DNA of 64,000 bases from Microbacterium sp. 4R-513. GTDB lineage: Bacteria; Actinomycetota; Actinomycetes; Actinomycetales; Microbacteriaceae. The notes under the pieces were generated by a model. The model had not been told where the DNA came from. It ran no database searches and worked only from the letters and a program-made list of their open reading frames with translations. Positions 5,724 to 39,774 of this stretch are shown here, in pieces. The position numbers were made by a program, and so were the translations under genes. The stretch lies in assembly GCF_011046485.1 (NCBI RefSeq), contig NZ_CP049256.1:1922001-1986000 (forward strand), in the 5' to 3' direction. Position 1 is the stretch's first letter. Every line of letters starts with the position of its first letter.

Positions 5724-8147
5724 TTGAAAATGAGACTGGACAGGCGGACCGGGCATCGGTTCGCCGCGATGGCGACGGCAGGCTTGCTGCTCGTCGCAGG
5801 ACTGGCCATGGCCGGCCCGGCATCGGCTGCCGATGAGGAGCTGATCACCAACGGCGGGTTCGAGAACGGGACCACGGGGTGGTTCGCGAACAACGGCAAC
5901 GCCGCCGACGGCGCGACTCTGGCCCTGACCACCGACGCCTACGCCGGCGCCAGCGCCCTGCGGGCCTCCGCCCGCAAGACCACGGGGTCGGGGCCGATGC
6001 AGGACCTGTCGGGCAAGCTGCAGGCGGGCAGCACCTACACGGTGAAGGCGCGGGTGAAGTACGACAACCCCAACAGCCCCGCGACGAAGCAGTTCTTCGT
6101 CACGATGCACTACGGCGGGGGGACCTACACGAACCTCGGCTCCGTGACGCCCCAGCGCGGGCAGTGGGGCTACATCAACAGCACCTTCACGATCCCCGCG
6201 ACGCAGAGCACGGCGACGACGCGCATCTTCATCGAGACGCCGTGGGTGGACTCGGCGACCGCTACGGCCGCCCCCGACACCCACCTCATGGACTTCACGG
6301 TGGACGACGTGTCGCTGGTCGGAACGCCGCCGCCTCCGCCGCCCTCGAAGACCATCGAGGTCGTCGGCAAGCTGCCGGGCGAGCACAACCCCCTCATCGG
6401 CCACAAGTTCGGAGCCGACGGGTTCGGGTTCGTCGACAACGGACGCGTGTACATGTACATGACGAACGACACGCAGGGCTACGCACCCAACCCCCTCACG
6501 GGCATCTCGCCGTCCATCGACTACGGCAAGATCAACCAGGTCACCCTCATCTCGTCGACCGACCTCGTGAACTGGGTCGACCACGGTGAGATCCAGGTCG
6601 CCGGTGCCACCGGCGTCGCGCCGTTCACGAACAACTCGTGGGCCCCCGGCATGGCGAAGAAGACGGTGAACGGGAAGGACAAGTACTTCCTCTACTACGC
6701 CAACGGCGGCGGCTCGAGCAACGTCATCACCGGTGACAGCCCGCTCGGACCCTGGACGAGCGAGCGGACGAGCACGCTCATCAACAGCAGCACCCCCGGT
6801 GCGCAAGGCGTGAACTGGCTCTTCGACCCGGCGCCCCTCGTGGACGACGACGGCCGGAGCTACCTCTACTTCGGCGGCGGCCCGGCTTCGACGAGCTTCC
6901 CCGCGGCGGAGCGGTTCAACAACCCGAAGAACATCCGCGTGATCGAGCTGGGCGACGACATGATCTCGACGAAGGGCACGGCGGCCGTCGTCGACGCCCC
7001 CGTCGCGTTCGAGGCATCCCAGGTGTTCAAGCGGAACGGCAAGTACTACCTGTCGTACTCGTCGCACTTCGGCGGCTCGGACTTCGGCGGCAACCAGACG
7101 CCGCTTCCGGGGTACCCGGGCGGCGGGCAGATCGGCTACATGATGTCGGACAACCCGATGTCGTGGCCGAAGGAGGCCTACGCCGGCGTGCTGTTCCCGA
7201 ACCAGTCGCAGTTCTTCGGCGCCGGCACCGGCGGCAACAACCACCAGTCGGTGTTCGAGTACGAGGGCAAGTACTACTTCACGTACCACGCGCCGACCCT
7301 CAACAAGCGGATCAACGGCAACACGACGCAGGGTTACCGAAGCCCTCACATCGAGGAGCTGACGTTCAACGCGGACGGGACCGCGAAGCAGGTCGTCGGC
7401 ACCTACAAGGGTGTCGACCAGGTCCGCAGCTTCGATCCGTACCGCGTGTTCGAGGCCGAGACCCTCGGGTGGAGCAAGGGCATCGCGACGGCGAAGATCG
7501 CCGGCCCGAGCGGCGAGTTCGGTGCGACGGCCCCGAACCTCGCGGTGACCGACGTCGACAACGGCGACTGGACGGCGCTGTCGGCCGTCGCCTTCGGCGA
7601 CACCGGGGCCTCGTCCGTCACGGTGAAGGTCAAGCCGGCACAGGCGGGCGGCTCCATCCAGGTGCGCTCGGGCAGTGAGACCGGTGCGGTGCTCGGAACG
7701 CTCCCGGTCACCGGGACTGCCGGGCAGTGGACGGAGATCACGGCTCCGCTCGAGGGTGCGACCGGCACGAAGGACGTGTTCTTCACGTACTCCGGCCCGA
7801 GCGGCGACCTCTTCGAGCTCGACTCGTACTCGTTCACCGCGGCTCCCGCGGCGCCGTCGCTGGATGTGTCGGTGGTGGCGGGGACGCGCTGCGTGGCGGG
7901 GAAGACGGTCGTGACGGTGCAGGCGACGAACGGTGAGGTGGTGCCGGTCGCGGTGTCGCTGTCGTCGTCGTTCGGTGCCAAGTCGATCGCGGCGCTCGCG
8001 CCGGGCTCGAGCACGGCGCAGGCGTTCACGTCGCGTCAGGTGTCGGTGCCGGCGGGTTCGGTGTCGGCGGAGGTCTCGGCGACGGTCGACGGGAAGCCGA
8101 TCTCGGTGACCGTGGACGCACCGTACGCCGCGCGCTCCTGCGGCTGA
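5724..8147 (+). CDS. Secreted GH43 arabinofuranosidase/arabinoxylan arabinofuranohydrolase-like enzyme (CBM4/9-GH43-CBM6)
   Basis: An 807-residue exported enzyme. The TTG at 5724 is preferred because AAGGAGG lies 7 nt upstream, whereas the ATG at 5730 is 13 nt away. A signal peptide ends near GPASA (about residue 34). Domain order: CBM4/9-like module (about 37-195), a Pro-rich linker (PPPPPPS), the GH43 propeller (about 200-545), a CBM6-like module (about 570-705, FEAETLGW onward) and the 95-residue C-terminal module shared with the previous gene. Within GH43 the acidic motifs NPLIGHKFGADGFGF, FDPAPLVDDDG and FEASQVFKRNGKYY fit the base, pKa-modulator and acid positions. The GH43 plus CBM6 layout resembles arabinoxylan arabinofuranohydrolases. 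The CBM is closely related to that of the upstream gene (both contain PNSPATKQFFVT). Confidence 0.85.
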   Translation: MKMRLDRRTGHRFAAMATAGLLLVAGLAMAGPASAADEELITNGGFENGTTGWFANNGNAADGATLALTTDAYAGASALRASARKTTGSGPMQDLSGKLQAGSTYTVKARVKYDNPNSPATKQFFVTMHYGGGTYTNLGSVTPQRGQWGYINSTFTIPATQSTATTRIFIETPWVDSATATAAPDTHLMDFTVDDVSLVGTPPPPPPSKTIEVVGKLPGEHNPLIGHKFGADGFGFVDNGRVYMYMTNDTQGYAPNPLTGISPSIDYGKINQVTLISSTDLVNWVDHGEIQVAGATGVAPFTNNSWAPGMAKKTVNGKDKYFLYYANGGGSSNVITGDSPLGPWTSERTSTLINSSTPGAQGVNWLFDPAPLVDDDGRSYLYFGGGPASTSFPAAERFNNPKNIRVIELGDDMISTKGTAAVVDAPVAFEASQVFKRNGKYYLSYSSHFGGSDFGGNQTPLPGYPGGGQIGYMMSDNPMSWPKEAYAGVLFPNQSQFFGAGTGGNNHQSVFEYEGKYYFTYHAPTLNKRINGNTTQGYRSPHIEELTFNADGTAKQVVGTYKGVDQVRSFDPYRVFEAETLGWSKGIATAKIAGPSGEFGATAPNLAVTDVDNGDWTALSAVAFGDTGASSVTVKVKPAQAGGSIQVRSGSETGAVLGTLPVTGTAGQWTEITAPLEGATGTKDVFFTYSGPSGDLFELDSYSFTAAPAAPSLDVSVVAGTRCVAGKTVVTVQATNGEVVPVAVSLSSSFGAKSIAALAPGSSTAQAFTSRQVSVPAGSVSAEVSATVDGKPISVTVDAPYAARSCG
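7853..8147 (+). repeat. 295-bp direct repeat, copy 2 (C-terminal module of second GH43)
   Basis: Second copy of the near-identical segment described at 5205-5499. Both copies start at the same codon phase and end at the same stop codon, so a complete C-terminal module was duplicated as a unit. Confidence 0.9.
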
Positions 8148-27430: not shown

Positions 27431-28204
27431 TCAGGGCGACGACCGTGCGGCGAGGCCGGCGGCGTAGCCCTCCTGCCACGACTCGCGGGCGCCGGTGTGG
27501 AACAGGTCGCGGTCGCGCTCGCGCACGATGCTGCGGGCTCCCGGGAGATCGAGCTCGCCCACGAGATCGGCGCGTCCGCGCACGACCGCGACGGGCAGCC
27601 CCGTCGTCTTGCGCTTCACGAGGTCGGCGGCCGCCGCCAGCTCGTCGGCGACGCAGGGGAGGGTCACGACGAGCGGACGCCCCGCGGAGTCGACGTCGCC
27701 CCGGTAGTCCTCGAACACCCGCACTCCGCCCGCGCCGATCGCACTGTCGGTCTGTCCGTCGCGCCAGGCGCGGCCGAGCGTGTCGGACAGGATGACGCCG
27801 ACGCGAGCGCCGGTCGCCGCGCGCAGACCGGCGGCGAGGGCGCGAGCCGAGGCATCCGGATCCACCGGCAGGAGCAGGATCGTGCCCGGAGCGGTGTTGC
27901 TCGCATCGACCCCGGCCGCCGCGGCGATGATCCCCAGTCGGCTCTCGACGATGCGGACCCGGCCATCGGCCGACGTCGCGACGACGCGGGCGGTCTCGGC
28001 CTCGATCGCGTCCGCGCGGTCGTCTGCGACGACGGAGCGGCCCTCGGCCTTCGACACGATCTTCGAGGTCACGACGAGGATGTCGCCGTCGCGCAGAGGA
28101 TCGGCGGCCGCAGCCGCGGCGATGATCGCGACGAGGTCGTCGCCGGCCTGGATCTCGGGGATGCCGCGCAGCGGGAAGATCGTCAGGTTCGGCGCTTCGG
28201 GCAT
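27431..28204 (-). CDS. cofE: CofE: coenzyme F420-0:L-glutamate ligase
   Basis: A 257-residue GTP-dependent ligase that adds glutamates to F420-0, corresponding to the N-terminal half of mycobacterial FbiB; the nitroreductase-like C-terminal half is absent. Family landmarks are the N-terminal [33 protein letters not shown] (about 40-57), [32 protein letters not shown] and the metal-site region around these Asp/Ser residues. It is divergent from cofD with 39 bp between starts, so the two probably share a promoter region. It forms part of the F420 gene set spread over 27.4-39.8 kb. Confidence 0.9.
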
Positions 28205-28243: not shown

Positions 28244-29242
28244 ATGCGCGACCTTCGAAACGACGGCGTCCCTCTCCACGGTCTGCGGGTCGTCCTCCTC
28301 GCCGGCGGCGCGGGCGGATCGACGTTCGCCGTCGGACTCCGCGACGTCGTCGTGGCCGGAGGCGGAAGTCTGACGGTCGTCTGCAACACCGCCGACGACC
28401 TCTGGGTTCACGGCCTGCGCATCCAGCCCGACGTCGACTCGATGCTCTACGGACTCGCGGGCGTGAAGGATCCCGTGCGCGGCTGGGGCCGGGCCGGCGA
28501 CTCGGATCGGGTGTCTCAGGAGCTTCGCGAATGGAACCTCGGGTGGGACTGGTTCGCGCTCGGCGACCTCGACCTCGGAACGCACATCGCCCGCAGCTCG
28601 TGGCTCCGTGAGGGCGCAGGGGTCGGCGGGGTCGTGCACCGGCTCCAGGAGCGGTGGGAGCTGGGCGCCCGGCTCCTGCCGATGACCGAGTCCGAGGTGG
28701 ACACCCTCGTGATGCTCGATGAGGGCACGATCCACTTCCAGGAGTGGTGGACCCGCCACCGCGCGCAGCGCGAGCCCCGCGCATTCGCCAACCCCGGGAT
28801 CGAATCCGCCCGGCCGGCACCCGGGGTGCTCGAGGCCCTCGCCGAGGCCGACGTCGTCGTGCTCGCACCTTCGAATCCCGTGGTCTCCATCGGGCCCATC
28901 GTCGGCGTCCCGGGCATCGCTGACGCCATCAGAGGCGGGACCGCACCCGTCGTCGGCGTCTCGCCGATCATCGGCGGATCGCCGGTGCGGGGGATGGCCG
29001 ACGTGTGCCTGCGGGTGGTCGGAGCCGAATGCTCCGCCGCGGGCGTGGCGCAGCTGTACGGCGCCCGCGACGGGGGCGGGCTCCTCGACGCGTGGCTCCT
29101 CGGGGAGGAGGACGCGGCCGAGGCTCCGCGCATCGAGGGCCTCGGCATCCGTCCCGTCGTCACGCCCCTGTGGATGTCGGATGTCGCGCTCACGCGTGCG
29201 CTCGCCGCCGACGCGCTCGCCGCCGCCCTGACGCTCGGCTGA
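28244..29242 (+). CDS. cofD: CofD/FbiA: LPPG/EPPG:FO phospho-(enol)lactyl transferase
   Basis: A 332-residue enzyme that transfers the (enol)pyruvyl/lactyl phosphate moiety from a GDP-linked donor to FO, giving F420-0 or its dehydro form. The N-terminal LLAGGAGGSTFAVGL (18-32) is the donor-binding signature, followed by VVCNTADDLWVHGLRIQPDVDS with the metal-binding Asp. LAPSNPVVSIGPI and GVSPIIGGSPVRGMAD are further family blocks. The ATG at 28244 is divergent from cofE. It is 102 bp ahead of the pyrimidine catabolism genes. Confidence 0.92.
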   Translation: MRDLRNDGVPLHGLRVVLLAGGAGGSTFAVGLRDVVVAGGGSLTVVCNTADDLWVHGLRIQPDVDSMLYGLAGVKDPVRGWGRAGDSDRVSQELREWNLGWDWFALGDLDLGTHIARSSWLREGAGVGGVVHRLQERWELGARLLPMTESEVDTLVMLDEGTIHFQEWWTRHRAQREPRAFANPGIESARPAPGVLEALAEADVVVLAPSNPVVSIGPIVGVPGIADAIRGGTAPVVGVSPIIGGSPVRGMADVCLRVVGAECSAAGVAQLYGARDGGGLLDAWLLGEEDAAEAPRIEGLGIRPVVTPLWMSDVALTRALAADALAAALTLG

Positions 29243-29344: not shown

Positions 29345-30193
29345 ATGGCTGTCGTTCGAGCGGCGATCACACAGACCACCTGGACGGGTGACAAAGCGTC
29401 CATGCTCGACAAGCACGAGCAGTTCGCGCGGGATGCCGCGGCCCAGGGGGCGCAGGTCGTGTGCTTCCAGGAGCTGTTCTACGGCCCGTACTTCGGCATC
29501 ACGCAGGACAAGAAGTACTACCGCTTCGCCGAGGCGGCCGACGGGCCGATCGTGCAGCGGTTCGCGGACCTCGCCAAGGAGCTCGGCGTGGTCTCGGTGC
29601 TGCCGATCTACGAGGAGGACCAGACCGGCGTCTACTACAACACGTCGGTGCTGGTGGATGCCGATGGCACGATCCTCGGCAAGTACCGCAAGAACCACCT
29701 CCCCAACCTCGAGAAGTTCTGGGAGAAGTTCTACTTCCGCCCCGGCAACCTCGGCTATCCCGTGTTCGACACCGCCGTCGGCCGCGTCGGCATGTACATC
29801 TGCTACGACCGGCACTTCCCCGAAGGATGGCGCGAGCTCGGGCTCAACGGCGCGCACCTCGTCTTCAACCCCAACGCCACCAAGCCCGGTCTTTCGAACC
29901 GTCTCTGGGAGGTCGAGGGACCCGCGGCCGCGGTCGCGAACGGGTACTTCGTGCTGCAGCCGAACCGCGTGGGCCGCGAGGACAACGAGTACGGCGACGA
30001 CGCGGTCGACTTCTACGGCACGAGCCAGGTGATCGACCCGCGGGGCAACTTCGTCGGCGACCGCGGATCCACCGAGCACGAGGAGGTGCTCGTGCGCGAC
30101 CTCGACCTCGACATGGTGCAGCAGATGCGCGACGACTGGCAGTTCTACCGCGACCGCCGTCCCGACACGTACAACGACATCGTGGCGCCGTGA
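29345..30193 (+). CDS. Nitrilase-superfamily amidohydrolase, beta-ureidopropionase / N-carbamoyl amino-acid amidase-like
   Basis: A 282-residue cytoplasmic carbon-nitrogen hydrolase with the intact catalytic triad Glu43 (CFQELFYGPYF), Lys116 (YRKNHLP) and Cys153 (ICYDRHFPEGWRELGLNGA). The FYGPYF and W-R-E-L-G-L sequence around Cys fits beta-ureidopropionases and N-carbamoylputrescine amidases. Because a dihydropyrimidinase gene follows after 12 bp and a class III aminotransferase is downstream, hydrolysis of N-carbamoyl-beta-alanine to beta-alanine is the best reading. The preceding bases contain GGGGAGG near 29334 as a ribosome-binding site. Confidence 0.85.
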   Translation: MAVVRAAITQTTWTGDKASMLDKHEQFARDAAAQGAQVVCFQELFYGPYFGITQDKKYYRFAEAADGPIVQRFADLAKELGVVSVLPIYEEDQTGVYYNTSVLVDADGTILGKYRKNHLPNLEKFWEKFYFRPGNLGYPVFDTAVGRVGMYICYDRHFPEGWRELGLNGAHLVFNPNATKPGLSNRLWEVEGPAAAVANGYFVLQPNRVGREDNEYGDDAVDFYGTSQVIDPRGNFVGDRGSTEHEEVLVRDLDLDMVQQMRDDWQFYRDRRPDTYNDIVAP

Positions 30194-30205
30194 GAGTGAG
30201 CTGAC

Positions 30206-31642
30206 ATGACGACGACACTCATCACCGGCGGCACCGTGGTCTCGGCGACGGGACGTGCCGAAGCGGACGTGCTCATCGACGGCGAGACGATCGCCGCCGT
30301 GCTGGCTCCCGGCTCCCAGCTTCTCGGGACGGATGTCGCGGCATCCGTCGACGCCGTCATCGACGCGACCGGCAAGTACGTGATCCCCGGCGGCATCGAC
30401 GCCCACACGCATATGGAGCTGCCGTTCGGCGGCACGAACGCGTCCGACACCTTCGAGACCGGCACGCGCGCCGCCGCGTGGGGCGGCACGACGTCGATCA
30501 TCGACTTCGCCGTGCAGCGCTACGGCGAGCGGGTGCAGGACGGCTTGGCCGCATGGCACGAGAAGGCGGCCGGCAACTGCGCCATCGACTACGGCTTCCA
30601 CCAGATCGTCGGCGGGGTCGACGACGACTCGCTCGCGGCGATGCGTGGGCTCGCCGACGAAGGCGTCACGAGCTTCAAGCTCTTCATGGCCTATCCGGGC
30701 GTCTTCTACTCCGACGACGCGCAGGTGCTGAGGGCCATGCAGGTGTCGCAGGAGACCGGCCTCCTGACGATGATGCACGCCGAGAACGGTCCCGCGATCG
30801 ACGTGCTCGCGGCGCAGCTGGCCGAGGCCGGCAAGAAGGCGCCGTACTACCACGGCATCGCGCGCGCGTGGCAGATGGAGGAGGAGGCGACGCACCGCGC
30901 CATCATGCTGGCGAACCTCACCGGCGCTCCTCTCTACGTCGTCCACGTGTCGGCCAAGCAGGCGGTCGAGCAGCTCGCGTGGGCGCGCGACCAGGGCTGG
31001 AACGTCTTCGGCGAGACGTGCCCGCAGTACCTCTACCTGTCGCTCGAGGAGCAGCTCGGCGGCTTCAGCGAGGAGTGGGGGCAGTTCGAAGGCGCGAAAT
31101 GGGTGTGCTCCACCCCGCTGCGGTCCCGGGCCGAGGGCCACCAGCACCACATGTGGCAGGCGCTCCGGACCAACGACATCCAGATGGTCTCCACCGACCA
31201 CTGTCCGTTCTGCATGAAGGGCCAGAAGGAGCTCGGCAAGGACGACTTCCGCGCGATCCCCAACGGCATCGGCTCGATCGAGCACCGCATGGACCTCATG
31301 TACCAGGGCGTCGTCACGGGGAAGATCACCCTCGAGCGCTGGGTCGAGCTGACCAGCACGACGCCGGCCCGCATGTTCGGCCTGTACGGGCGGAAGGGCG
31401 TCATCCAGCCCGGAGCCGACGGCGACATCGTCGTCTACGACCCGAACGGCCACACGTCGATCGGGCTGAACAAGACCCACCACATGAACATGGACTACTC
31501 CGCGTGGGAGGGCTACGAGATCGACGGGCACGTCGACACAGTGCTCTCGCGCGGCAAGGTCATCGTCGACGGCGGCGAGTATCTCGGATCGAAGGGCGAC
31601 GGGCGCTACCTCAAGCGCGGCCTGTCGCAGTACCTCCTGTGA
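30206..31642 (+). CDS. hydA: Dihydropyrimidinase / D-hydantoinase
   Basis: A 478-residue cyclic amidohydrolase that opens dihydrouracil, dihydrothymine or 5-substituted hydantoins. The binuclear zinc site is visible: His67 and His69 in GIDAHTHME, the carboxylated Lys158 in SFKLFMAYPG, further His residues in MHAENG and VHVSAK, and the late Asp in STDHCPF. The length is normal. It lies between the nitrilase-like amidase (12-bp gap) and an LLM oxidoreductase, forming the core of a reductive pyrimidine or hydantoin route. A long hairpin (31661-31711) follows the stop codon. Confidence 0.92.
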   Translation: MTTTLITGGTVVSATGRAEADVLIDGETIAAVLAPGSQLLGTDVAASVDAVIDATGKYVIPGGIDAHTHMELPFGGTNASDTFETGTRAAAWGGTTSIIDFAVQRYGERVQDGLAAWHEKAAGNCAIDYGFHQIVGGVDDDSLAAMRGLADEGVTSFKLFMAYPGVFYSDDAQVLRAMQVSQETGLLTMMHAENGPAIDVLAAQLAEAGKKAPYYHGIARAWQMEEEATHRAIMLANLTGAPLYVVHVSAKQAVEQLAWARDQGWNVFGETCPQYLYLSLEEQLGGFSEEWGQFEGAKWVCSTPLRSRAEGHQHHMWQALRTNDIQMVSTDHCPFCMKGQKELGKDDFRAIPNGIGSIEHRMDLMYQGVVTGKITLERWVELTSTTPARMFGLYGRKGVIQPGADGDIVVYDPNGHTSIGLNKTHHMNMDYSAWEGYEIDGHVDTVLSRGKVIVDGGEYLGSKGDGRYLKRGLSQYLL

Positions 31643-31660
31643 CGCGCGGCATCGCCACCA

Positions 31661-31711
31661 TGTCCCGAAATCGGTCGCTTCCAGGGGTTGGAAGCGACCG
31701 ACTTCGGGACA
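31661..31711. repeat. Long intercistronic hairpin (22-bp arms)
   Basis: Arms at 31661-31682 and 31690-31711 pair over 22 bp with a single mismatch around the 7-nt loop AGGGGTT. The sequence starts TGTCCCGAAATCGGTCGC. It is not followed by a T-tract. A smaller hairpin (CGGGA/TCCCG) lies just downstream near 31727-31741. It sits between hydA and the LLM gene and could be an mRNA processing/stabilising element or a dispersed palindromic repeat. Confidence 0.8.
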
Positions 31712-31754
31712 TCAAAGGACAGGATCGGGACACGATCCCGGGGAGGAGTTGACC

Positions 31755-32771
31755 ATGGACTTCGGCGTCGTCCTCCAGACCAACCCGCCCGCCTCGCGCA
31801 CAGTGCAGCTCGCCAAGCTCGCCGAGGCGCACGGCTTCAGCCACGTGTGGACGTTCGACTCGCATCTGCTGTGGGAGGAGCCGTACGTCATCCACTCGGC
31901 GATCCTCGCCGAGACCAACCGCATCACCGTGGGGCCGTTCGTCACGAACCCGTCGACGCGGGACTGGACGGTCACGGCATCCGTGTTCGCGACGCTCAAC
32001 GAGATGTACGGCAACCGGACCGTGTGCGGCATCGGCCGCGGCGACTCCGCGGTGCGCGTCACCAACGGCCAGCCGGCATCGCTCGGCGAACTGCGCCAGG
32101 CGATCCACGTCATCCGCGAGCTCGCCAACTCGCGCGCCGTCGACTACCACGGCGCGACGCTGCAGTTCCCGTGGAGCCGCGGCTCGTCACTCGAGGTCTG
32201 GGTCGCCGCCTACGGTCCGCTCGCCCTCAAGCTCGCGGGCGAGGTCGGCGACGGCTTCATCCTGCAGCTCGCGGACGTCGACATCGCGGCATGGATGATC
32301 AAGACGGTCCGGGATGCCGCGGCGAACGTCGGCCGCGACCCCGACGCACTGGAGTTCTGCGTCGCCGCGCCGATGTACATCGGCACCGACTGGGCGCACA
32401 TGCGCGACCAGTGCCGGTGGTTCGGGGGGATGGTGGGCAACCACGTCGCCGACATCGTGGCGAAGTACGGTGCGCACGGCGCCGTGCCGGACGCCCTCAC
32501 CGAGTACATCGCGGGGCGCACGGGCTACGACTACAACACCCACGGCCGGGCCGAGAACGATCATGTCGACTTCGTGCCCGACGCGATCGTCGACCGCTTC
32601 TGCATCCTGGGGACGGCGGAGGAGCACATCGCGAAGCTCGAGCAGCTGCGAGCGCTCGGCATGACGCAGTTCGCGGGCTACCTGCAGCACGACAACAAGG
32701 AGGAGACCCTGCGCGTCTACGGCGAGCGGGTCATCCCGGCGCTCTCGGCACACGTGACCGCGAAGTCCTGA
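31755..32771 (+). CDS. LLM-class (luciferase-like) flavin/F420-dependent oxidoreductase
   Basis: A 338-residue TIM-barrel member of the luciferase-like monooxygenase superfamily; overall it resembles actinobacterial F420-type members (opening MDFGVVLQTNPPASRTVQLAKLAE). The ATG at 31755 is preferred over TTG at 31749 because GGGAGGAG ends 6 nt before it. Phosphate/cofactor-type motifs include VGPFVTNPSTRDWTVTAS and VCGIGRGDSAVRV. Its place between hydA and the aminotransferase, inside an F420 biosynthesis region, makes F420 a likely cofactor. A reductive step on a pyrimidine or related ring is an inference; FMN-dependent ring oxygenation, as in RutA, is the alternative. Confidence 0.75.
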   Translation: MDFGVVLQTNPPASRTVQLAKLAEAHGFSHVWTFDSHLLWEEPYVIHSAILAETNRITVGPFVTNPSTRDWTVTASVFATLNEMYGNRTVCGIGRGDSAVRVTNGQPASLGELRQAIHVIRELANSRAVDYHGATLQFPWSRGSSLEVWVAAYGPLALKLAGEVGDGFILQLADVDIAAWMIKTVRDAAANVGRDPDALEFCVAAPMYIGTDWAHMRDQCRWFGGMVGNHVADIVAKYGAHGAVPDALTEYIAGRTGYDYNTHGRAENDHVDFVPDAIVDRFCILGTAEEHIAKLEQLRALGMTQFAGYLQHDNKEETLRVYGERVIPALSAHVTAKS

Positions 32772-32804
32772 GCCGCTGCCCAGCACCCCCCGACGGGGGC
32801 CAGA

Positions 32805-34133
32805 ATGGCAGACATGACCATGAGCGAAGCGACGACCGACCTCGACGACCTCGCGACGCGGCTCGACCGCGATCACGTCTTCCACTCCTGGTCGGCGCAG
32901 GCCGGGCTGACCCCTACCGTCATCGCCGGCGGCTCGGGCAGCGTCGTGTGGGATCACGCCGGCAGGCGCTACCTGGACTTCTCGAGCCAGCTCGTCAACG
33001 TCAACATCGGACACCAGCATCCCGCGGTCATCCGGGCGATCCACGACCAGGCCGACGTCCTCGCGACCGTCGGCCCGGCCGCGGCGAGCCTCGTGCGCGG
33101 CGAGGCGGCCAAGCGCATCGCCGACCGGGCGCCCGAGGGGTTCTCCAAGGTCTTCTTCACCAACGGCGGCGCCGACGCCGTCGAGAACGCCATCCGGATG
33201 GCGCGGCTGCACACGGGCCGCGACAAGGTGCTCTCGACCTACCGCTCGTACCACGGCAACACGGGAGCCGCCATCGTCGCGACCGGCGACTGGCGACGGA
33301 TGCCGAACGAGTTCGCCCGCGGACACGTGCACTTCTTCGGGCCCTACCTGTACCGCTCCGAGTTCTGGGCGACGACGCCCGAGGAGGAGAGCGCGCGGGC
33401 CCTGCGCCACCTGGAGCGCGTGATCCAGTCCGAAGGGCCGGCGACGATCGCGGCGATCCTGCTCGAGTCCGTGCCGGGCACGGCGGGCATCCTGGTGCCG
33501 CCGCCCGGCTACCTCGCCGGGGTCCGTGCCATCGCCGACAAGTACGACATCCTCCTCATCCTCGACGAGGTCATGTGCGGCTTCGGACGCACCGGCCGGT
33601 GGTTCGCCTTCCAGGGATACGACGTCGTGCCCGACCTCATCACCTTCGCGAAGGGCGTCAACTCGGGCTACGTGCCGATCGGCGGGGTCGTGATCTCCGA
33701 CCCCATCGCGGCGACGTTCGACGAGCGCGTCTTCCCCGGGGGACTCACCTACAGCGGCCATCTCCTGGGCGCCGCCTCGATCGTCGGGGCGCTCGACGCG
33801 ATGGAGTCCGAGGGCATCGTCGACAACGCTCGCCGGATCGGCGCGGAGGCGATCGGCCCTGGGCTCCGCGAGCTCGCCGAGCGGCATCCCGCGATCGGCG
33901 AGGTACGAGGCGAGGGCGTCTTCTGGGCGATCGAGTTCGTGACCGATCGCGAGACCCGTGAGCCGGTGGATGCCGCGACCATCGGCCGCATCAAGAGCGA
34001 GCTCGTGTCGCGCGACCTGCTGCCGTTCGTCGCCGAGAACCGCATCCACGTGGTCCCGCCGTGCGTCGTCACCCACGACGAGGTGGCCCAGGCGCTCGCA
34101 ATTTACGACGAAGCCTTCGCCGCCGCCCTCTGA
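32805..34133 (+). CDS. Class III pyridoxal-phosphate aminotransferase (omega-amino acid:pyruvate type)
   Basis: A 442-residue fold-type I aminotransferase. Asp254 in ILDEVMCGFGRTG contacts the PLP ring nitrogen and Lys283 in ITFAKGVNSGYVPIGG forms the Schiff base. FTNGGADAVENAIRMAR and YHGNTGAA are standard cofactor-phosphate motifs. In the context of a beta-ureidopropionase and dihydropyrimidinase, deamination of beta-alanine or 3-aminoisobutyrate to the semialdehyde is the expected role. Other omega-amino acids or polyamines are possible. The start could also be one of two further Met codons within the first six residues. fbiC starts 13 bp after its stop, suggesting cotranscription. Confidence 0.82.
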   Translation: MADMTMSEATTDLDDLATRLDRDHVFHSWSAQAGLTPTVIAGGSGSVVWDHAGRRYLDFSSQLVNVNIGHQHPAVIRAIHDQADVLATVGPAAASLVRGEAAKRIADRAPEGFSKVFFTNGGADAVENAIRMARLHTGRDKVLSTYRSYHGNTGAAIVATGDWRRMPNEFARGHVHFFGPYLYRSEFWATTPEEESARALRHLERVIQSEGPATIAAILLESVPGTAGILVPPPGYLAGVRAIADKYDILLILDEVMCGFGRTGRWFAFQGYDVVPDLITFAKGVNSGYVPIGGVVISDPIAATFDERVFPGGLTYSGHLLGAASIVGALDAMESEGIVDNARRIGAEAIGPGLRELAERHPAIGEVRGEGVFWAIEFVTDRETREPVDAATIGRIKSELVSRDLLPFVAENRIHVVPPCVVTHDEVAQALAIYDEAFAAAL

Positions 34134-34146
34134 GCGGGTGCACCCG

Positions 34147-36609
34147 ATGCGCTTCCCTGCAACACCGACGGCTGCCCTTGCCGCTCCCGCCGTGACCGTC
34201 GACGAGGCCGAGCGGATGCTGTCCGCGACAGGTGACGATTTCGAGGAGCTCCTCGCGCGCGCCTCGGCCCTGCGCGACGAAGGCCTTGCCGCGGCCCGGC
34301 GACCGGATGTCATCACGTACTCGCGCAAGGTGTTCGTCCCGCTCACGACGCTGTGCCGCGATCGCTGCCACTACTGCATCTTCGTCGACACCCCCGGGCA
34401 GCTGCGCCTCACGCACGCCCCGCTGTACATGTCGGACGAGCAGATCCTGCGGGTCGTGCGGGCCGGCGCGGACCTCGGGTGCAAAGAGGCGCTGCTGACG
34501 CTCGGCGACCGGCCGGAGGAGCGCTGGCCCGAGGCGCGGGCCTGGCTCGATGAGCACGGCTACGCGTCGACGCTCGACTACGTCGCGCACGCCGCCCGGC
34601 TCATCACGGCCGAGACGGGTCTGCTCGCGCACCTCAACCCGGGCGTGATGACGGCGGAGGAGCTGCGCACCCTCCGCCCGACTGCCCCGTCGATGGGCAT
34701 GATGCTCGAGACCACCTCGCGCGCACTCTTCGAGACTCCGGGCGCCGTGCACTACGGATCGCCCGACAAAGACCCCGATGTGCGGCTGCGAGTCATCGCC
34801 GATGCCGGCGAAGCGCGTATCCCGTTCACGACGGGGCTCCTCGTCGGGATCGGCGAGACGCTTCGCGACCGCGCCGAGTCGCTCGTCGCGCTCCGCGACC
34901 TCCACGACCGCTACGGCCACGTGCAGGAGGTCATCGTCCAGAACTTCCGGGCCAAGCCGGGAACCGCGATGCGCAGCGCTCCGGATGCCGCGACCCGCGA
35001 GTACATCGCCACGGTCGCCGTCGCGCGGATCGTTCTCGGCGCGCACATGCGCATCCAGGCGCCGCCCAACCTCAGCGCGCGCGACGAGCTCGGCCTGCTC
35101 GTCCGCGCCGGCGTCGACGACTGGGGAGGCGTCTCGCCCCTCACCGCCGACCACGTCAACCCCGAGCGGCCGTGGCCGCACCTCGACGACCTCGCGGCTG
35201 CGACAGCCGAGGCGGGCTTCACTCTGCGCGAGCGCCTCACGGCCCATCCCGAGTACGTGCACGACTCCGAGCGCTGGATCGACCCCGGTCTGCACGCGGC
35301 CGTGGAACGGCTGGCCGACCCGGTGACGGGTCTCGCGGCGACGGATGCCTCGAGCCGGGCCGATCCCGTCGATCCGGAGCGTTTCGTCTCCGGCGCTGCG
35401 CGCCTCCGCTCAACGACCGGGGGCGGCGCTGCGGATTCGGGGCGTTTCGTCTCCGGCGCTGCGCGCCTCCGCTCAACGACCGGGACCGGGGCCGGGGCCG
35501 GCGTTCCCCCTCGGTCGTTGAGCGAGCGGAGCGAGACGAAACGCACCGAACCGCCAATGGAACGTCTGGCCGAGCAGGCCGCGCGAGACCCCCGCAGTCT
35601 CGACGACACCGAGTGGGAAGCCCTCCTCACCGCGACCCGGGACGACCTCGAGGCGGTCGTCCGCACGGCCGACGACGTGCGCCGGTACACCGTCGGCGAC
35701 GCCGTGAGCATGGTCGTCAACCGCAATCTGACCTCGACGCACCTGCGCGCGGTGCCGGCCGGTCCGCCGACGTTCGGACTGGCCGATGCAGCTGCGGTCG
35801 CCCACGACGCCGCCGATCTCGGTGCGACCGAGGTGTGCGTGCAGGGCGCTCTGCCGCCGACGGAAGATCCCGGCCTGTACGTCGAGCTGGTCCGCGCGAT
35901 CAGCTCGGCCGAGCCGAGCCTCCACCTCCATGCCTACCGACCGCAGGACGTGGCCGACCTCTCCGACCGCGGCGGGATCGGGCTCCAGGCGGCGCTCGAC
36001 AGCCTCAAGGCGGCGGGCGTTCGCACGATGCCCGGCACGGGCGTGAAGATCCTGAGCGAGCGCGTGCGCACGCTTGTGGCACCCGGAGACCTCGAGATCG
36101 ACCGCTGGATCGAGATCATCACGGCGGAGCACCGCGCCGGACTCCGCACGTCGTCGGTGCTCTTCTACGGCCACGTCGAGACGGCGGGGGAGCGGATCGC
36201 GCACCTCCGCCGCCTGCGCTCGATCCAGGACGAGACGGGCGGCTTCACGGAGTTCGTCCCGATTCCGCTTCCTGGCCACGGCGTGCCCCTCGTGAACGAC
36301 CGCGCCGACGCCGACGAGCACCGGGCGATGGTCGCGGTCGCGCGCCTCATGCTGGCAGGCAGCATCCCGCACATCCAGATCCCGTGGACCCGGCACGGCC
36401 GCGACCTCGCGATCACGCTCCTGCAGGCGGGCGGAGACGACCTGGGCGGAACGCTGCTCGACGGGCGCGTGCTGCCGGAGTCGGGGGTCGAGCACGGCCT
36501 GGAGTACCCGTACGCGGAGGCCGCGGCATCCGTCCGGCGGATCTTCCGGCCCCTGCGGCAGCGGTCGACGGACTACCGCGAGGCGGTCCCGGCAAGGACC
36601 TCGGCATGA
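34147..36609 (+). CDS. fbiC: FbiC-like FO synthase (CofG-CofH fusion) with a cysteine-less CofH half
   Basis: An 820-residue homologue of FbiC, which makes the deazaflavin FO from tyrosine and a pyrimidinedione using two radical-SAM halves. The CofG half (about 1-405) has an intact cluster motif Cys70-x3-Cys74-x2-Cys77 (LCRDRCHYCIF). The CofH half (about 490-815) is recognisable from ATEVCVQGALPP, PGTGVKIL, GFTEFVPIPL and AGGDDLGGTL. However, where CofH should carry Cx3CxxC after VVNRN, it reads LTSTHLRAVPAGPPTFGL (about 524-541), with no cysteine and roughly ten residues deleted. The inter-domain linker (about 411-465) is encoded by repeat sequence. The CofH half may be catalytically dead or altered. 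The stop overlaps the next start. Confidence 0.85.
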   Translation: MRFPATPTAALAAPAVTVDEAERMLSATGDDFEELLARASALRDEGLAAARRPDVITYSRKVFVPLTTLCRDRCHYCIFVDTPGQLRLTHAPLYMSDEQILRVVRAGADLGCKEALLTLGDRPEERWPEARAWLDEHGYASTLDYVAHAARLITAETGLLAHLNPGVMTAEELRTLRPTAPSMGMMLETTSRALFETPGAVHYGSPDKDPDVRLRVIADAGEARIPFTTGLLVGIGETLRDRAESLVALRDLHDRYGHVQEVIVQNFRAKPGTAMRSAPDAATREYIATVAVARIVLGAHMRIQAPPNLSARDELGLLVRAGVDDWGGVSPLTADHVNPERPWPHLDDLAAATAEAGFTLRERLTAHPEYVHDSERWIDPGLHAAVERLADPVTGLAATDASSRADPVDPERFVSGAARLRSTTGGGAADSGRFVSGAARLRSTTGTGAGAGVPPRSLSERSETKRTEPPMERLAEQAARDPRSLDDTEWEALLTATRDDLEAVVRTADDVRRYTVGDAVSMVVNRNLTSTHLRAVPAGPPTFGLADAAAVAHDAADLGATEVCVQGALPPTEDPGLYVELVRAISSAEPSLHLHAYRPQDVADLSDRGGIGLQAALDSLKAAGVRTMPGTGVKILSERVRTLVAPGDLEIDRWIEIITAEHRAGLRTSSVLFYGHVETAGERIAHLRRLRSIQDETGGFTEFVPIPLPGHGVPLVNDRADADEHRAMVAVARLMLAGSIPHIQIPWTRHGRDLAITLLQAGGDDLGGTLLDGRVLPESGVEHGLEYPYAEAAASVRRIFRPLRQRSTDYREAVPARTSA
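35380..35543. repeat. REP-like palindromic repeats forming the fbiC inter-domain linker
   Basis: A 42-bp unit beginning CGTTTCGTCTCCGGCGCTGC is present twice as identical direct copies (35380-35421 and 35443-35484). An inverted copy of its ends occupies 35512-35543 (CGGTCGTTGAGCGAGCGGAG to ACGAAACG). Intergenic palindromes with GTTTCGTCTCGCT..GCTCAACGACC ends are known to me from Microbacteriaceae-type genomes. Here they lie in frame inside the coding region and encode RFVSGAARLRSTTG twice. Confidence 0.85.
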
Positions 36610-38114
36610 TGCGCCGCTCGGTCGGCGTCGCGATCGTCGGAGCGGGGTTCGCCGGCCTCGCGGCCGCGATGACCCTTCGCGATGCGGGGCACGACATCGC
36701 CGTCTTCGAGCGCGCCGATAGAGTCGGCGGCACGTGGCGCGACAACACCTATCCCGGTGTCGCGTGCGATGTGCCGTCGCACCTGTACGGGTTCGCGCGG
36801 CATCCCGAACCGTCGTGGTCGGCCGAGTTCGCGCCGGGCGGCGAGATCCAGGCCTACATCGAGCGGGTCGTCGACCGGGAGCGACTGGGGGCGGCGATCA
36901 CCTTCGACGCCCCGCTCCTCGATGCCGAATGGCGGGAGGATGCCTCGGCCTGGCGCCTCGAGTTCGGCGGCGCCGCCCCGGCGACCGTCGAGGCCGAGGC
37001 GCTCGTCCTCGCCTGTGGGCGCCTCACCGAGCCGCGCATCCCGCCGATCGCCGGGCTCGAGTCGTTCGCCGGGCCGCTGTTCCACTCGGCGCGGTGGGAT
37101 CACGGAGTCGACCTCGACGGGCGGCACGTCGCTGTCGTGGGCTCGGGCGCGAGCGCTGTGCAGCTCGTGCCGCAGCTCGCGCGCAGCGCGGCGAAGGTGT
37201 CGCTCTTCCAGCGGAGCCCCGCCTGGATCCTGCCGCGCGGCGGGCGGGCGTACTCCGACGCCGAGCGTGCGCGGTTCGCCGAGGATCGGAGCGAGATCGC
37301 CGCCCTGAGGAAACGGCTCGACGCCGAGGGCGAGGCGCGGTTCGCGTCGCGTTCCGGCGGTCCGGACGCGGCCGACGCCGAGCGTGCCGCCCGTGCGCAC
37401 CTCGCCGCGCAGGTCGCCGACTCGGCGCTGCGGGCCGTCCTCACGCCCGACTACGCCTTCGGCTGCAAGCGGGTGCTGCTCTCCGACGAGTTCTACCCTG
37501 CCGTGGCCTCGGACCGCGTCACGCTCGAGCCGAGCGCGCTCGCCGCGATCGACGGAGGCGAGCTGGTCGCGGCATCCGGGAGGCGTCATCGCGGGGTCGA
37601 CGCCCTCGTGCTCGCGACCGGCTTCCAGACCACCAGGCAGCCCTACGCGCGGATCGTCCGCGGCGAGGGCGGCGTCGCGCTCGCCGAGCATTGGGCGGAC
37701 GGCATGACGTCGTTCGGCTCGACCGTGGTCTCGGGCTTTCCGCAGCTGTTCGTGCTCAACGGACCGAATGCGTCGCTCGGTCACACGTCGTCGGTCCTCA
37801 TGCTCGAGGCGCAGGCCCGATACGTGGCCGCGTCGCTCGCGCGTCGTGCGCCCGGCGCCGTGCTGAGGGTCCGGGCCGAGGCCGAACGAGACTACACCCG
37901 CATGGTCGACGACCGAGCGGCGGGGACCCCCTGGCTGACCGGCGGCTGCCGCAACTGGTATGTCGACGAGGGGTCGAGACGGCTCACCCTCGTGTGGCCG
38001 GGGACCGTGGCGGACTACCGCGCGGCGCTCGCCGCGAGCGACGGGGCCGAGTTCGAGGCCATGACGCCGATGGCGGCTGTTGCCGCTCGTACGCAGGAGG
38101 AGGCGGGATCGTGA
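36606..38114 (+). CDS. Flavoprotein monooxygenase, Baeyer-Villiger type
   Basis: A 502-residue class B flavoprotein monooxygenase. Two Rossmann motifs are visible: FAD-binding VGAGFAGLAAA (about 10-20) and NADPH-binding VVGSGASAVQLVP (about 178-190). Between them is the Baeyer-Villiger fingerprint FxGxxxHxxxW as FAGPLFHSARW (154-164). It would insert oxygen into a ketone or hydroxylate a heteroatom; the substrate is unknown. It is translationally coupled to fbiC upstream and fgd downstream by 4-nt overlaps, an unexpected position inside an F420 operon. This suggests that it works with an F420-dependent enzyme or was recruited into the operon. Confidence 0.85.
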   Translation: MMRRSVGVAIVGAGFAGLAAAMTLRDAGHDIAVFERADRVGGTWRDNTYPGVACDVPSHLYGFARHPEPSWSAEFAPGGEIQAYIERVVDRERLGAAITFDAPLLDAEWREDASAWRLEFGGAAPATVEAEALVLACGRLTEPRIPPIAGLESFAGPLFHSARWDHGVDLDGRHVAVVGSGASAVQLVPQLARSAAKVSLFQRSPAWILPRGGRAYSDAERARFAEDRSEIAALRKRLDAEGEARFASRSGGPDAADAERAARAHLAAQVADSALRAVLTPDYAFGCKRVLLSDEFYPAVASDRVTLEPSALAAIDGGELVAASGRRHRGVDALVLATGFQTTRQPYARIVRGEGGVALAEHWADGMTSFGSTVVSGFPQLFVLNGPNASLGHTSSVLMLEAQARYVAASLARRAPGAVLRVRAEAERDYTRMVDDRAAGTPWLTGGCRNWYVDEGSRRLTLVWPGTVADYRAALAASDGAEFEAMTPMAAVAARTQEEAGS

Positions 38115-39121
38115 CAGTGCCCATCCGTTTCGGATACAAGGCATCGGCGGAGCAGTTCGGACCTGCGGAGCTGCTCGAGTACGCCGTCATGGCGGAGGAG
38201 GCGGGCTTCGACTCGGTCTTCGTGTCGGATCACCTCCAGCCCTGGTTGCACGAGGGTGGGCACGCCCCGGCATCCGTTCCCTGGCTGGGGGCTCTCGGCG
38301 CGAAGACGTCTCGCGTGCTCATCGGCACGTCGGTGCTGACGCCCACGTTCCGCTACAACCCGACGGTCGTCGCGCAGGACTTCGCGACTCTCGGCGTGAT
38401 GTACCCCGGCCGGGTGATCCTGGGCGTCGGGACGGGCGAGGCGCTCAACGAGGCGAACCTCGGCATCCCGTGGCCGGAGCCGCCCGAGCGGTTCCGGCGC
38501 CTCAAGGAGGCCATCGGCCTGATCCGGCGGCTGTGGTCGGAGGACCGCGTCAACTTCGACGGCGAGTTCTACACGACCCGCAACATCACGATCTACGACA
38601 AGATGGACGACCCCGTGCCGATCTACATCGGCGCGGCCGGTCCCGCTGCGACACGCCTGGCGGGACGCATCGCCGACGGATTCATCACGACGAGCGGCAA
38701 GAAGCGCGAGCTCTACACCGACACGCTGCTGCCCGCCCTGCACGAAGGGCTGGAGAAGGCCGGTCGGCCCGATGACGCGATCGACACCCTCATCGAGATC
38801 AAGGTCTCGTACCATCCCGATCGCGCGACGGCGCTCGAGAAGACGCGCTTCTGGGCCCCGCTCGCGCTGAGTCCCGAAGAGAAGATGGGCGTCGACGATC
38901 CGCTGGAGATGCAGCGGCTCGGCGAGCAGCTGCCGATCGAGCGGGCGGCCTCCCGGTTCATCGTCTCGGACGACCCCGAGGAGCACGTGGAACGCATCGC
39001 GTGGTACGTCGGGCTCGGCTTCCGCCACCTCGTGTTCCACGATCCCGGCGCCGACCAGGCCGAGTTCCTGCGCCTCTACCGCGACGACATCCTGCCGCGC
39101 CTGCGCGAAAGGTTCTCGTGA
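38111..39121 (+). CDS. fgd: F420-dependent glucose-6-phosphate dehydrogenase
   Basis: A 336-residue LLM-fold enzyme that oxidises glucose 6-phosphate and reduces F420. The whole sequence follows mycobacterial Fgd closely: GYKASAEQF at the start, SDHLQPW with catalytic His41 and Trp45, TSVLTPTFRYNP, VGTGEALNE with Glu110, and TSGKKRELY with the phosphate-binding lysine near 197-198, then RFWAPLALS and IDDPIE-like VDDPLEM blocks. The GTG start overlaps the BVMO stop, and its stop overlaps cofC. Its presence indicates that reduced F420 is generated in this organism, feeding the LLM-class and other F420-dependent reductases. Confidence 0.92.
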   Translation: MTVPIRFGYKASAEQFGPAELLEYAVMAEEAGFDSVFVSDHLQPWLHEGGHAPASVPWLGALGAKTSRVLIGTSVLTPTFRYNPTVVAQDFATLGVMYPGRVILGVGTGEALNEANLGIPWPEPPERFRRLKEAIGLIRRLWSEDRVNFDGEFYTTRNITIYDKMDDPVPIYIGAAGPAATRLAGRIADGFITTSGKKRELYTDTLLPALHEGLEKAGRPDDAIDTLIEIKVSYHPDRATALEKTRFWAPLALSPEEKMGVDDPLEMQRLGEQLPIERAASRFIVSDDPEEHVERIAWYVGLGFRHLVFHDPGADQAEFLRLYRDDILPRLRERFS

Positions 39122-39774
39122 GCGGTTGGATCATCGTCCTGCCCGTGAAAGAGGCGTCTCGCGCGAAGTCCCGACTGGGAGAGCTGCGTCGCGGCGACGG
39201 CGCACTCGCACGGGCGATCGCGCTCGACACGATCGACGCGGTGCGCGAGTGCTCCGCCGTGGGGAGGGTCGTCGTCGTCACGGACGACGGCGGGCTTGAA
39301 GCATCCGTCCCCTCCGACGTCGAGGTGATCGCCGACCGGGAGGGACGGGGTCCTGATGCCGCCATCGCGGCGGCGATGTCGATGCTCGCCGAGACCGCCC
39401 CGCGCGCCGCGCTGCTCGCCGATCTGCCCGCGCTCAGACCCGGCGACCTCGCCGACGCTCTCGAGGCCGCGTTGGGGCATCCGCGCGCCGTCGTGGCGGA
39501 TGCGGAAGAACGGGGCTCGACCCTCGTCACGGCCGCCCCCGGGGTGCGCTGGGCCTCGGCATTCGGGCGGGATTCGTTCGAGCAGCACCTGTCGCTGGGT
39601 TGCGAGGCGCTGCCCGTGCCGGCCGGCTCGTCACTCCGACGCGACGTCGACACACCCGACCACCTCGCGGCGGCCGCGGAGCTCGGGCTCCGCGGCCGCA
39701 CGCTCGCGTGGTGGACAGCTGTCGGCGGCGATCAGCCCCGGGGGCTCTCCTTGACCGTCGATACGCGGACGTAG
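39118..39774 (+). CDS. cofC: CofC/FbiD: phospho-(enol)pyruvate/lactate guanylyltransferase
   Basis: A 218-residue nucleotidyltransferase that activates 2-phospholactate or phosphoenolpyruvate with GTP for CofD. The N-terminal VLPVKEASRAKSRLG (7-21) is the nucleotide-binding signature; VVVVTDDGG and ALLADLPALRPGDL are the following conserved blocks, the latter with a metal-binding Asp. The GTG start overlaps fgd by 4 nt. Its 3' end overlaps the convergent GH43 gene by 43 nt, so the last 13 codons are double-coding; truncating them would leave the catalytic core intact. Confidence 0.88.
   Translation: MSGWIIVLPVKEASRAKSRLGELRRGDGALARAIALDTIDAVRECSAVGRVVVVTDDGGLEASVPSDVEVIADREGRGPDAAIAAAMSMLAETAPRAALLADLPALRPGDLADALEAALGHPRAVVADAEERGSTLVTAAPGVRWASAFGRDSFEQHLSLGCEALPVPAGSSLRRDVDTPDHLAAAAELGLRGRTLAWWTAVGGDQPRGLSLTVDTRT

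Follow-up and report, generated by a model that had tools for sequence, protein, structure and literature searches.

A CofH half without cluster cysteines and its coupled flavoprotein suggest a second way to make the F420 core in Microbacteriaceae

How could an FO synthase operate when one of its two radical S-adenosylmethionine (SAM) halves has lost the cysteines of its [4Fe-4S] cluster? The question is raised by a gene in a 64,000-nucleotide stretch of the Microbacterium sp. 4R-513 genome (contig NZ_CP049256.1, positions 1,922,001 to 1,986,000; hereafter the window), whose product, FbiC', fuses a CofG half to a cysteine-less CofH half (CofH'). Passages of PMC8498797 describe canonical CofH as converting tyrosine to a p-hydroxybenzyl radical that is added to ribityldiaminouracil, and CofG as closing the ring of an intermediate that reaches it from CofH by diffusion. 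We give a probability of about two in three to the reading that FbiC' and the product of the adjacent gene, a type I Baeyer-Villiger monooxygenase-like flavoprotein (FMO), constitute a working FO synthase whose first step would proceed without radical SAM chemistry. This adjacent gene, the key feature of the locus, was absent from the initial annotation of the window, which had pointed to the missing cysteines.

Translation bears out that annotation on both halves of the protein: Cys70, Cys74 and Cys77 are present in the CofG half, and the CofH half, which reads NRNLTSTHLRAVPAGPPTFGLADAAAVAHDAADLGATEVC, contains no CxxxCxxC. The CofH segment had also been described as about ten residues shorter than usual; the shortening holds, and amounts to 12 residues relative to a canonical Microbacteriaceae FbiC (L042). 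Profile scores follow the same division, with 476 bits for FbiC' against TIGR03550 (CofG; cut-off 213) and 310 bits against TIGR03551 (CofH; cut-off 374), and the radical SAM profile PF04055 finds the CofG half and not the CofH' half submitted alone. The CofG half thus has both the score and the CxxxCxxC of an FO synthase FbiC, the CofH half does not qualify as CofH, and CofH' taken alone falls outside the radical SAM superfamily as defined by PF04055 and the cluster cysteines. Its predicted fold is nevertheless still nearest to radical SAM enzymes. The nearest solved sequence and fold is that of aminofutalosine synthase MqnE (6xi9, 6xig), a radical SAM enzyme that acts in menaquinone synthesis, at roughly 24% identity across 318 aligned residues. 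A second CofH or FbiC elsewhere, which had been offered as one explanation, is ruled out for the host genome: a TIGR03551 search of the complete single contig (3.91 Mb) recovered no other CofH, the remaining three matches scoring 18-23 bits and two of them lying on the CofG half.

Alignment with relatives showed the loss to be lineage-wide. Within the genus, 79 of 149 genomes matched FbiC' (two, G008 and G078, by short and weak matches), and the CofH cysteines were absent in all 30 loci read from this search. Across 299 Microbacteriaceae genomes, full-length CofH scores were bimodal, with 18 genomes at 511-527 bits and all others at or below 332. TIGR03551 matched in 72 of these genomes, 68 of which also encode CofG; the four lacking CofG (G189, G218, G282 and G323) were excluded from the FbiC count, G323 being a CofH' fragment at a contig end adjoining FMO. 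Among the 68 FbiC-bearing genomes, 50 (21 genera) carry the cysteine-less form and 18 (six genera) the canonical one, and none carries both. When named genomes were scanned with 20 CofH' halves as queries, the best 80 of at least 558 confirmed relatives comprised 79 cysteine-less loci and a single canonical one, from Arsenicicoccus cauae. CofH' extends to five further actinobacterial families, with holders in Terrabacter aerolatus (Intrasporangiaceae), Millisia brevis (Gordoniaceae), Aeromicrobium (Nocardioidaceae), Arthrobacter sp. MYb23 (Micrococcaceae) and Actinoplanes lutulentus (Micromonosporaceae). At the class level, scores fail to discriminate CofH' from canonical CofH, which scores nearly as high; the loop was therefore read row by row in 34 loci. 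Two CofH' contigs labelled Planococcus and Acidobacteria (L121, L163) resemble Microbacterium or Microbacteriaceae and may be contaminants or carry the wrong label; in our trees, the metagenome-assembled genome (MAG) with the Acidobacteria label is a close neighbour of a Microbacteriaceae MAG.

The cysteine-less state is shared by all 58 CofH' rows (52 distinct genomes). No CxxxCxxC is present in any of 123 CofH' sequences, which were sorted by that motif, and the loop of one (L158) has a single cysteine that does not form it, while the CofG half retains CxxxCxxC in all 79 FbiC rows compared. Three residues (598, 678 and 773) separate the 123 CofH' from 43 canonical sequences with zero exceptions, and in the CofH tree one branch with support 100 divides CofH' (43 rows) from canonical sequences (14). 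The CofG half has a single variant-specific change, a conservative one. Ratios of nonsynonymous to synonymous substitution (dN/dS) were 0.11-0.28 for CofH' and 0.05-0.32 for FMO (10 pairs); these ratios, and for CofH' the three perfect diagnostic residues, show that the genes are not decaying. An assembly error or pseudogene as the cause of the loss is ruled out by the shared state in relatives together with purifying selection, and the artefact that the initial annotation had kept open is excluded by the agreement of the 58 rows and the 79 scan loci. The loss of the cluster cysteines from CofH, as read from these sequences, is old, conserved and lineage-wide.

The same set of genomes is marked by a second trait. 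A same-strand FMO gene follows downstream in 58/58 CofH' rows (52 genomes) versus 0/22 canonical loci (18 genomes), in 79/79 CofH' loci versus 0/1 canonical in the named-genome scan, and in 9/9 CofH' versus 0/25 canonical class-level loci; several genomes recur between the three sets, and many loci had a flank of only about 1.5 kb. In L092, FMO (6029-7492) begins exactly where CofH' ends. The family survey placed FMO within 3.2 kb of CofH' in 48 of 50 CofH' genomes; in G263, the contig stops after FbiC' and FMO opens another contig. Of 87 FMO matches, 37 do not stand beside CofH' and are at most 46% identical to the window FMO. A tree including 20 of these separates the 36 CofH'-adjacent proteins from the 20 non-adjacent ones by one branch with support 100.

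The nearest solved sequence to FMO is phenylacetone monooxygenase (PAMO, 1w4x; E 1.4e-58), an enzyme that converts phenylacetone to benzyl acetate and whose catalytic residues are Asp66 and Arg337. FMO Asp55 and Arg289 align with these two positions and are invariant in 19/19 aligned relatives, as are Gly156, His160 and Trp164. The window protein resembles PAMO in carrying both type I Baeyer-Villiger fingerprints, FxGxxxHxxxW(D/P) and GGxWxxxxYPGxxxD, and differs from it in length (502 versus 542 residues) and in belonging to a clade of its own beside CofH'. Of the 58 FMO rows, some of them incomplete, 14 lack the exact first fingerprint and one lacks the exact second.

Several observations bear on whether FO is still made. 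In the window, fgd, cofC, cofD and cofE are intact, as initially annotated, each exceeding its TIGR cut-off; the genome holds cofC, cofD, cofE and an F420-dependent enzyme, the gene set of an F420 producer. Across the family, cofD occurs in 49 of 50 CofH' genomes versus 131 of 299 Microbacteriaceae overall. In genus g125, three genomes carry FbiC'-FMO near cofC, cofD and cofE, and in a fourth these genes accompany canonical FbiC; g12 and g77 likewise include some species with one form and some with the other. In Actinoplanes lutulentus and in G443, CofG has a gene of its own, separate from CofH'+FMO. The CofG of Actinoplanes falls with the canonical one of Arsenicicoccus (SH-aLRT 99), and no canonical CofH was found in the Actinoplanes genome, where the stronger CofH-like match is MqnC; a canonical-lineage CofG therefore appears to be served there by CofH'+FMO. 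The CofH'/canonical label changes once on the CofH tree, built with the loop columns left out, and twice on the CofG tree, the latter because of the separate CofG genes.

Genomes that have cofD and no FbiC of either form (64 of the 131) offer a comparison. In nine such loci that we examined, cofC, cofE and an FGD-like gene are for the most part still nearby; an ATP-binding cassette (ABC) permease and ATPase accompany cofD in 8/9, and a binding protein as well in 7/9, with L257 ending at a contig edge and L259 having no importer. The system resembles FecCD-type importers in its Peripla_BP_2, FecCD and ABC_tran domains and departs from them, in the loci read, in being tied to cofD and FbiC absence rather than to iron or cobalamin genes. 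Whole-genome searches with the L264 binding protein recovered it in 56 of the 64 FbiC-less cofD+ genomes (55 at 48% identity or more, one as a partial 60% match), in 0/50 CofH' genomes, where only five paralogues of 34-39% identity were found, and in 0/18 canonical genomes, with no match whatever. Fisher p-values are 3e-24 against CofH' and 3e-12 against canonical genomes, and are too small given the relatedness of the genomes. In 46 of the 56, the importer is on the contig and strand of cofD, less than 4 kb away, and in genera g1, g22, g38, g53 and g77 it is present in FbiC-less members and not in CofH' members. The 20 genomes without cofD or FbiC gave one full match (G150, 57%), one fragmented match (G170) and one paralogue (G162, 35%). 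The natural reading of these sequences is that the cofD-linked ABC system is a candidate FO importer and that CofH' strains lack it because they make FO; since it is confined to FbiC-less genomes, CofH' genomes look like FO makers.

Taken from what is directly seen, namely the loss of the cluster motif, its conservation, the gene coupling, purifying selection, the downstream F420 genes and the exclusion of the importer, we infer that the coupled CofH'-FMO gene pair probably replaces the CofH step, with FO as the product, FMO and CofH' acting together, and the following chemistry. The CofG half would retain its cluster and perform the usual ring closure, whereas the CofH' half would have lost the [4Fe-4S] site and kept the substrate-binding barrel. 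FMO would supply an activated 4-hydroxybenzyl group by inserting oxygen into a tyrosine-derived carbonyl, such as 4-hydroxyphenylpyruvate or 4-hydroxyphenylacetaldehyde, with benzyl migration, and the resulting 4-hydroxybenzyl ester would decay to p-quinone methide. CofH' would then let C5 of 5-amino-6-ribitylaminouracil add to the quinone methide without a radical, giving the same adduct as the radical route of canonical CofH, which CofG would close to FO. Passage through the ester and quinone methide is chemical reasoning and tentative, with the odds somewhat against it, and a different FMO substrate is quite possible. It is very likely that the product is the known FO and that half of the enzyme is of the known kind. 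The wider picture stands in our judgement at even odds: a radical-free O2- and flavin-dependent deazaflavin route in which a former radical SAM enzyme, converted to non-radical coupling, would receive its 4-hydroxybenzyl unit from a Baeyer-Villiger monooxygenase, together with relatives that would have given up FO synthesis for import by a dedicated cofD-linked ABC transporter.

Other readings of the locus have to be weighed against a working synthase. FbiC' and FMO could make a modified deazaflavin or another CofD substrate instead of FO, as the three fixed residue changes of CofH' and an oxygenase partner able to add oxygen to the product would favour; this we regard as unlikely, because the CofG half is nearly unchanged, the Actinoplanes CofG beside CofH' is of the canonical lineage, and within one genus (g125) either FbiC form can stand next to the same cofC, cofD and cofE. 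The three readings in the initial annotation (a second CofH, a reaction split differently, a modified deazaflavin) are thus partly supported as a set, and the reaction split differently is the best supported of them, given an FMO coupled to every cysteine-less CofH read, with one decayed exception in the family survey.

That CofH' might be dead or structural, with FO taken up from neighbours and FbiC'/FMO of minor or no importance for F420, gains some plausibility from how common the absence of an FO synthase is among cofD-bearing members of the family and from the statement, in passages of PMC8498797, that FO readily crosses membranes. Purifying selection on CofH' and FMO, the perfect diagnostic residues, FMO coupling across several families and the absence of the candidate importer from all 50 CofH' genomes speak against this reading, which we hold to be improbable, at about one chance in ten. 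Still less credible is a CofG half that makes the radical for both steps while CofH' merely binds substrate: the CofG cluster motif is indeed retained in every row, but CofG shows almost no variant-specific change and is a separate gene in two genomes, and the FMO coupling would be left unexplained.

Some observations weigh against FbiC'-FMO as a radical-free FO synthase or against its proposed chemistry. A family-profile search ranks a steroid monooxygenase above PAMO for FMO. One genome, G344, has CofH' without FMO; its FbiC' is cut short and carries a stop codon, a decay that is likely a recent loss. G344 (L256) belongs to genus g85, the four FbiC-less cofD+ members of which carry the candidate importer. 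Eight of the 64 FbiC-less cofD+ genomes (G164, G175, G201, G300, G310, G364, G399 and G436), seven of which share a genus with CofH' members, have no importer, and importer absence alone is therefore no proof of synthesis; these cases could reflect an incomplete assembly, a recent loss or passive uptake of FO. An alpha/beta hydrolase, which would suit ester chemistry, occurs in only 12 of the 16 loci (among 137) in which the CofH'-FMO gap exceeds 500 bp, and the hydrolases of L063 and L084 are without the usual nucleophile serine. The esterase-type neighbour fits the ester proposal loosely, and the missing serine does not fit it.

The hydrolase gene lies between FbiC' and FMO in L063, L064, L067, L075, L076, L084, L154, L157, L160, L161, L163 and L168. 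In L064 and L082, which are one genome (as are L067 and L081), the match covers 31 residues only. No hydrolase match was found in the long-gap loci L065 and L069, or in any of 16 control loci with a short CofH'-FMO gap. Against Pfam Abhydrolase_6, three of four hydrolases exceed the cut-off and one falls below it.

Feature coordinates are collected in Table 1. FbiC' is like FbiC (NF006687; TIGR03550 plus TIGR03551) in its fusion order, CofG CxxxCxxC, many CofH motifs and accompanying fgd, cofC, cofD and cofE, and unlike it in a CofH half without cluster cysteines and below the CofH cut-off, with FMO next to it. Its linker contains a 40-bp sequence twice in direct orientation (35380, 35443) and a related one in inverted orientation (35513-35542), as if a repetitive extragenic palindromic (REP)-like element had turned coding. 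Between cofD and FbiC' (29345-34133) lie genes for a carbon-nitrogen hydrolase, a dihydropyrimidinase, a TIGR03842 LLM oxidoreductase and a class III aminotransferase. The first three also occur near cofD or FbiC in L074, L089, L258, L260, L262, L263 and L265, which suggests F420-linked reductive pyrimidine breakdown. The aminotransferase was rejected as a general FbiC' partner, its close homologues lying near FbiC' only in the window/L008, L074, L078 and L092, with distant ones in L076 and L149. A cluster of open reading frames considered as another conserved neighbour proved to be made up of antisense frames, of which at least two are, by position, FMO read backwards.

Table 1. Features of the FbiC'-FMO locus (window positions) and of the candidate importer (locus positions)
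Feature	Position	Strand	Remarks
FbiC', CofG half fused to cysteine-less CofH half (CofH')	34147..36609	+	820 aa; translation, NCBIfam and Pfam matches
CofG cluster motif CRDRCHYC, Cys70/74/77, intact	34354..34377	+	translation
Repeat-rich linker between FbiC' halves	35380..35542	.	read from sequence
CofH' half	35557..36606	+	
Short cysteine-free loop after NRN, where the radical SAM cluster loop would be	35719..35790	+	translation, alignment
Arg598, CofH'-diagnostic (canonical CofH: Ser)	35938..35940	+	123/123 CofH' vs 0/43 canonical
Glu678, CofH'-diagnostic (canonical CofH: Asp)	36178..36180	+	123/123 CofH' vs 0/43 canonical
Gly773, CofH'-diagnostic (canonical CofH: Glu)	36463..36465	+	123/123 CofH' vs 0/43 canonical
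FMO, type I Baeyer-Villiger monooxygenase-like flavoprotein	36606..38114	+	502 aa; start overlaps FbiC' stop
fgd, F420-dependent glucose-6-phosphate dehydrogenase	38111..39121	+	over TIGR03554 cut-off; start codon inferred
cofC	39118..39774	+	over TIGR03552 cut-off; start codon inferred
cofD (profile-match extent)	28289..29209	+	over TIGR01819 cut-off; genome positions 1950289-1951209
cofE	27431..28204	-	over TIGR01916 cut-off
FecCD-type ABC importer	L264:5895-8860		beside cofD; also L257, L258, L260-L263, L265

Among the papers listed for CofH, FbiC, FO synthase or Microbacterium F420, no title or abstract opening mentions a cysteine-less CofH or a monooxygenase of FO synthesis, and for FO uptake the matches listed concern unrelated subjects only. 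A Streptomyces venezuelae strain deleted for fbiC is reported in PMC12282290. The pairing of CofH' with an oxygen-using flavin enzyme, conserved at the sequence level, suggests an unrecognised second way to make the F420 core. If true, such a mechanism would give F420 engineering a route needing one cluster fewer of the two and would show by what changes a radical SAM enzyme is remodelled for a different reaction. As the CofH' form accounts for 50 of the 68 FbiC-bearing Microbacteriaceae, a different enzyme may stand behind the name 'FO synthase' in this family, and with CofH' and the candidate importer, FO sharing among soil bacteria can be put directly to the test.

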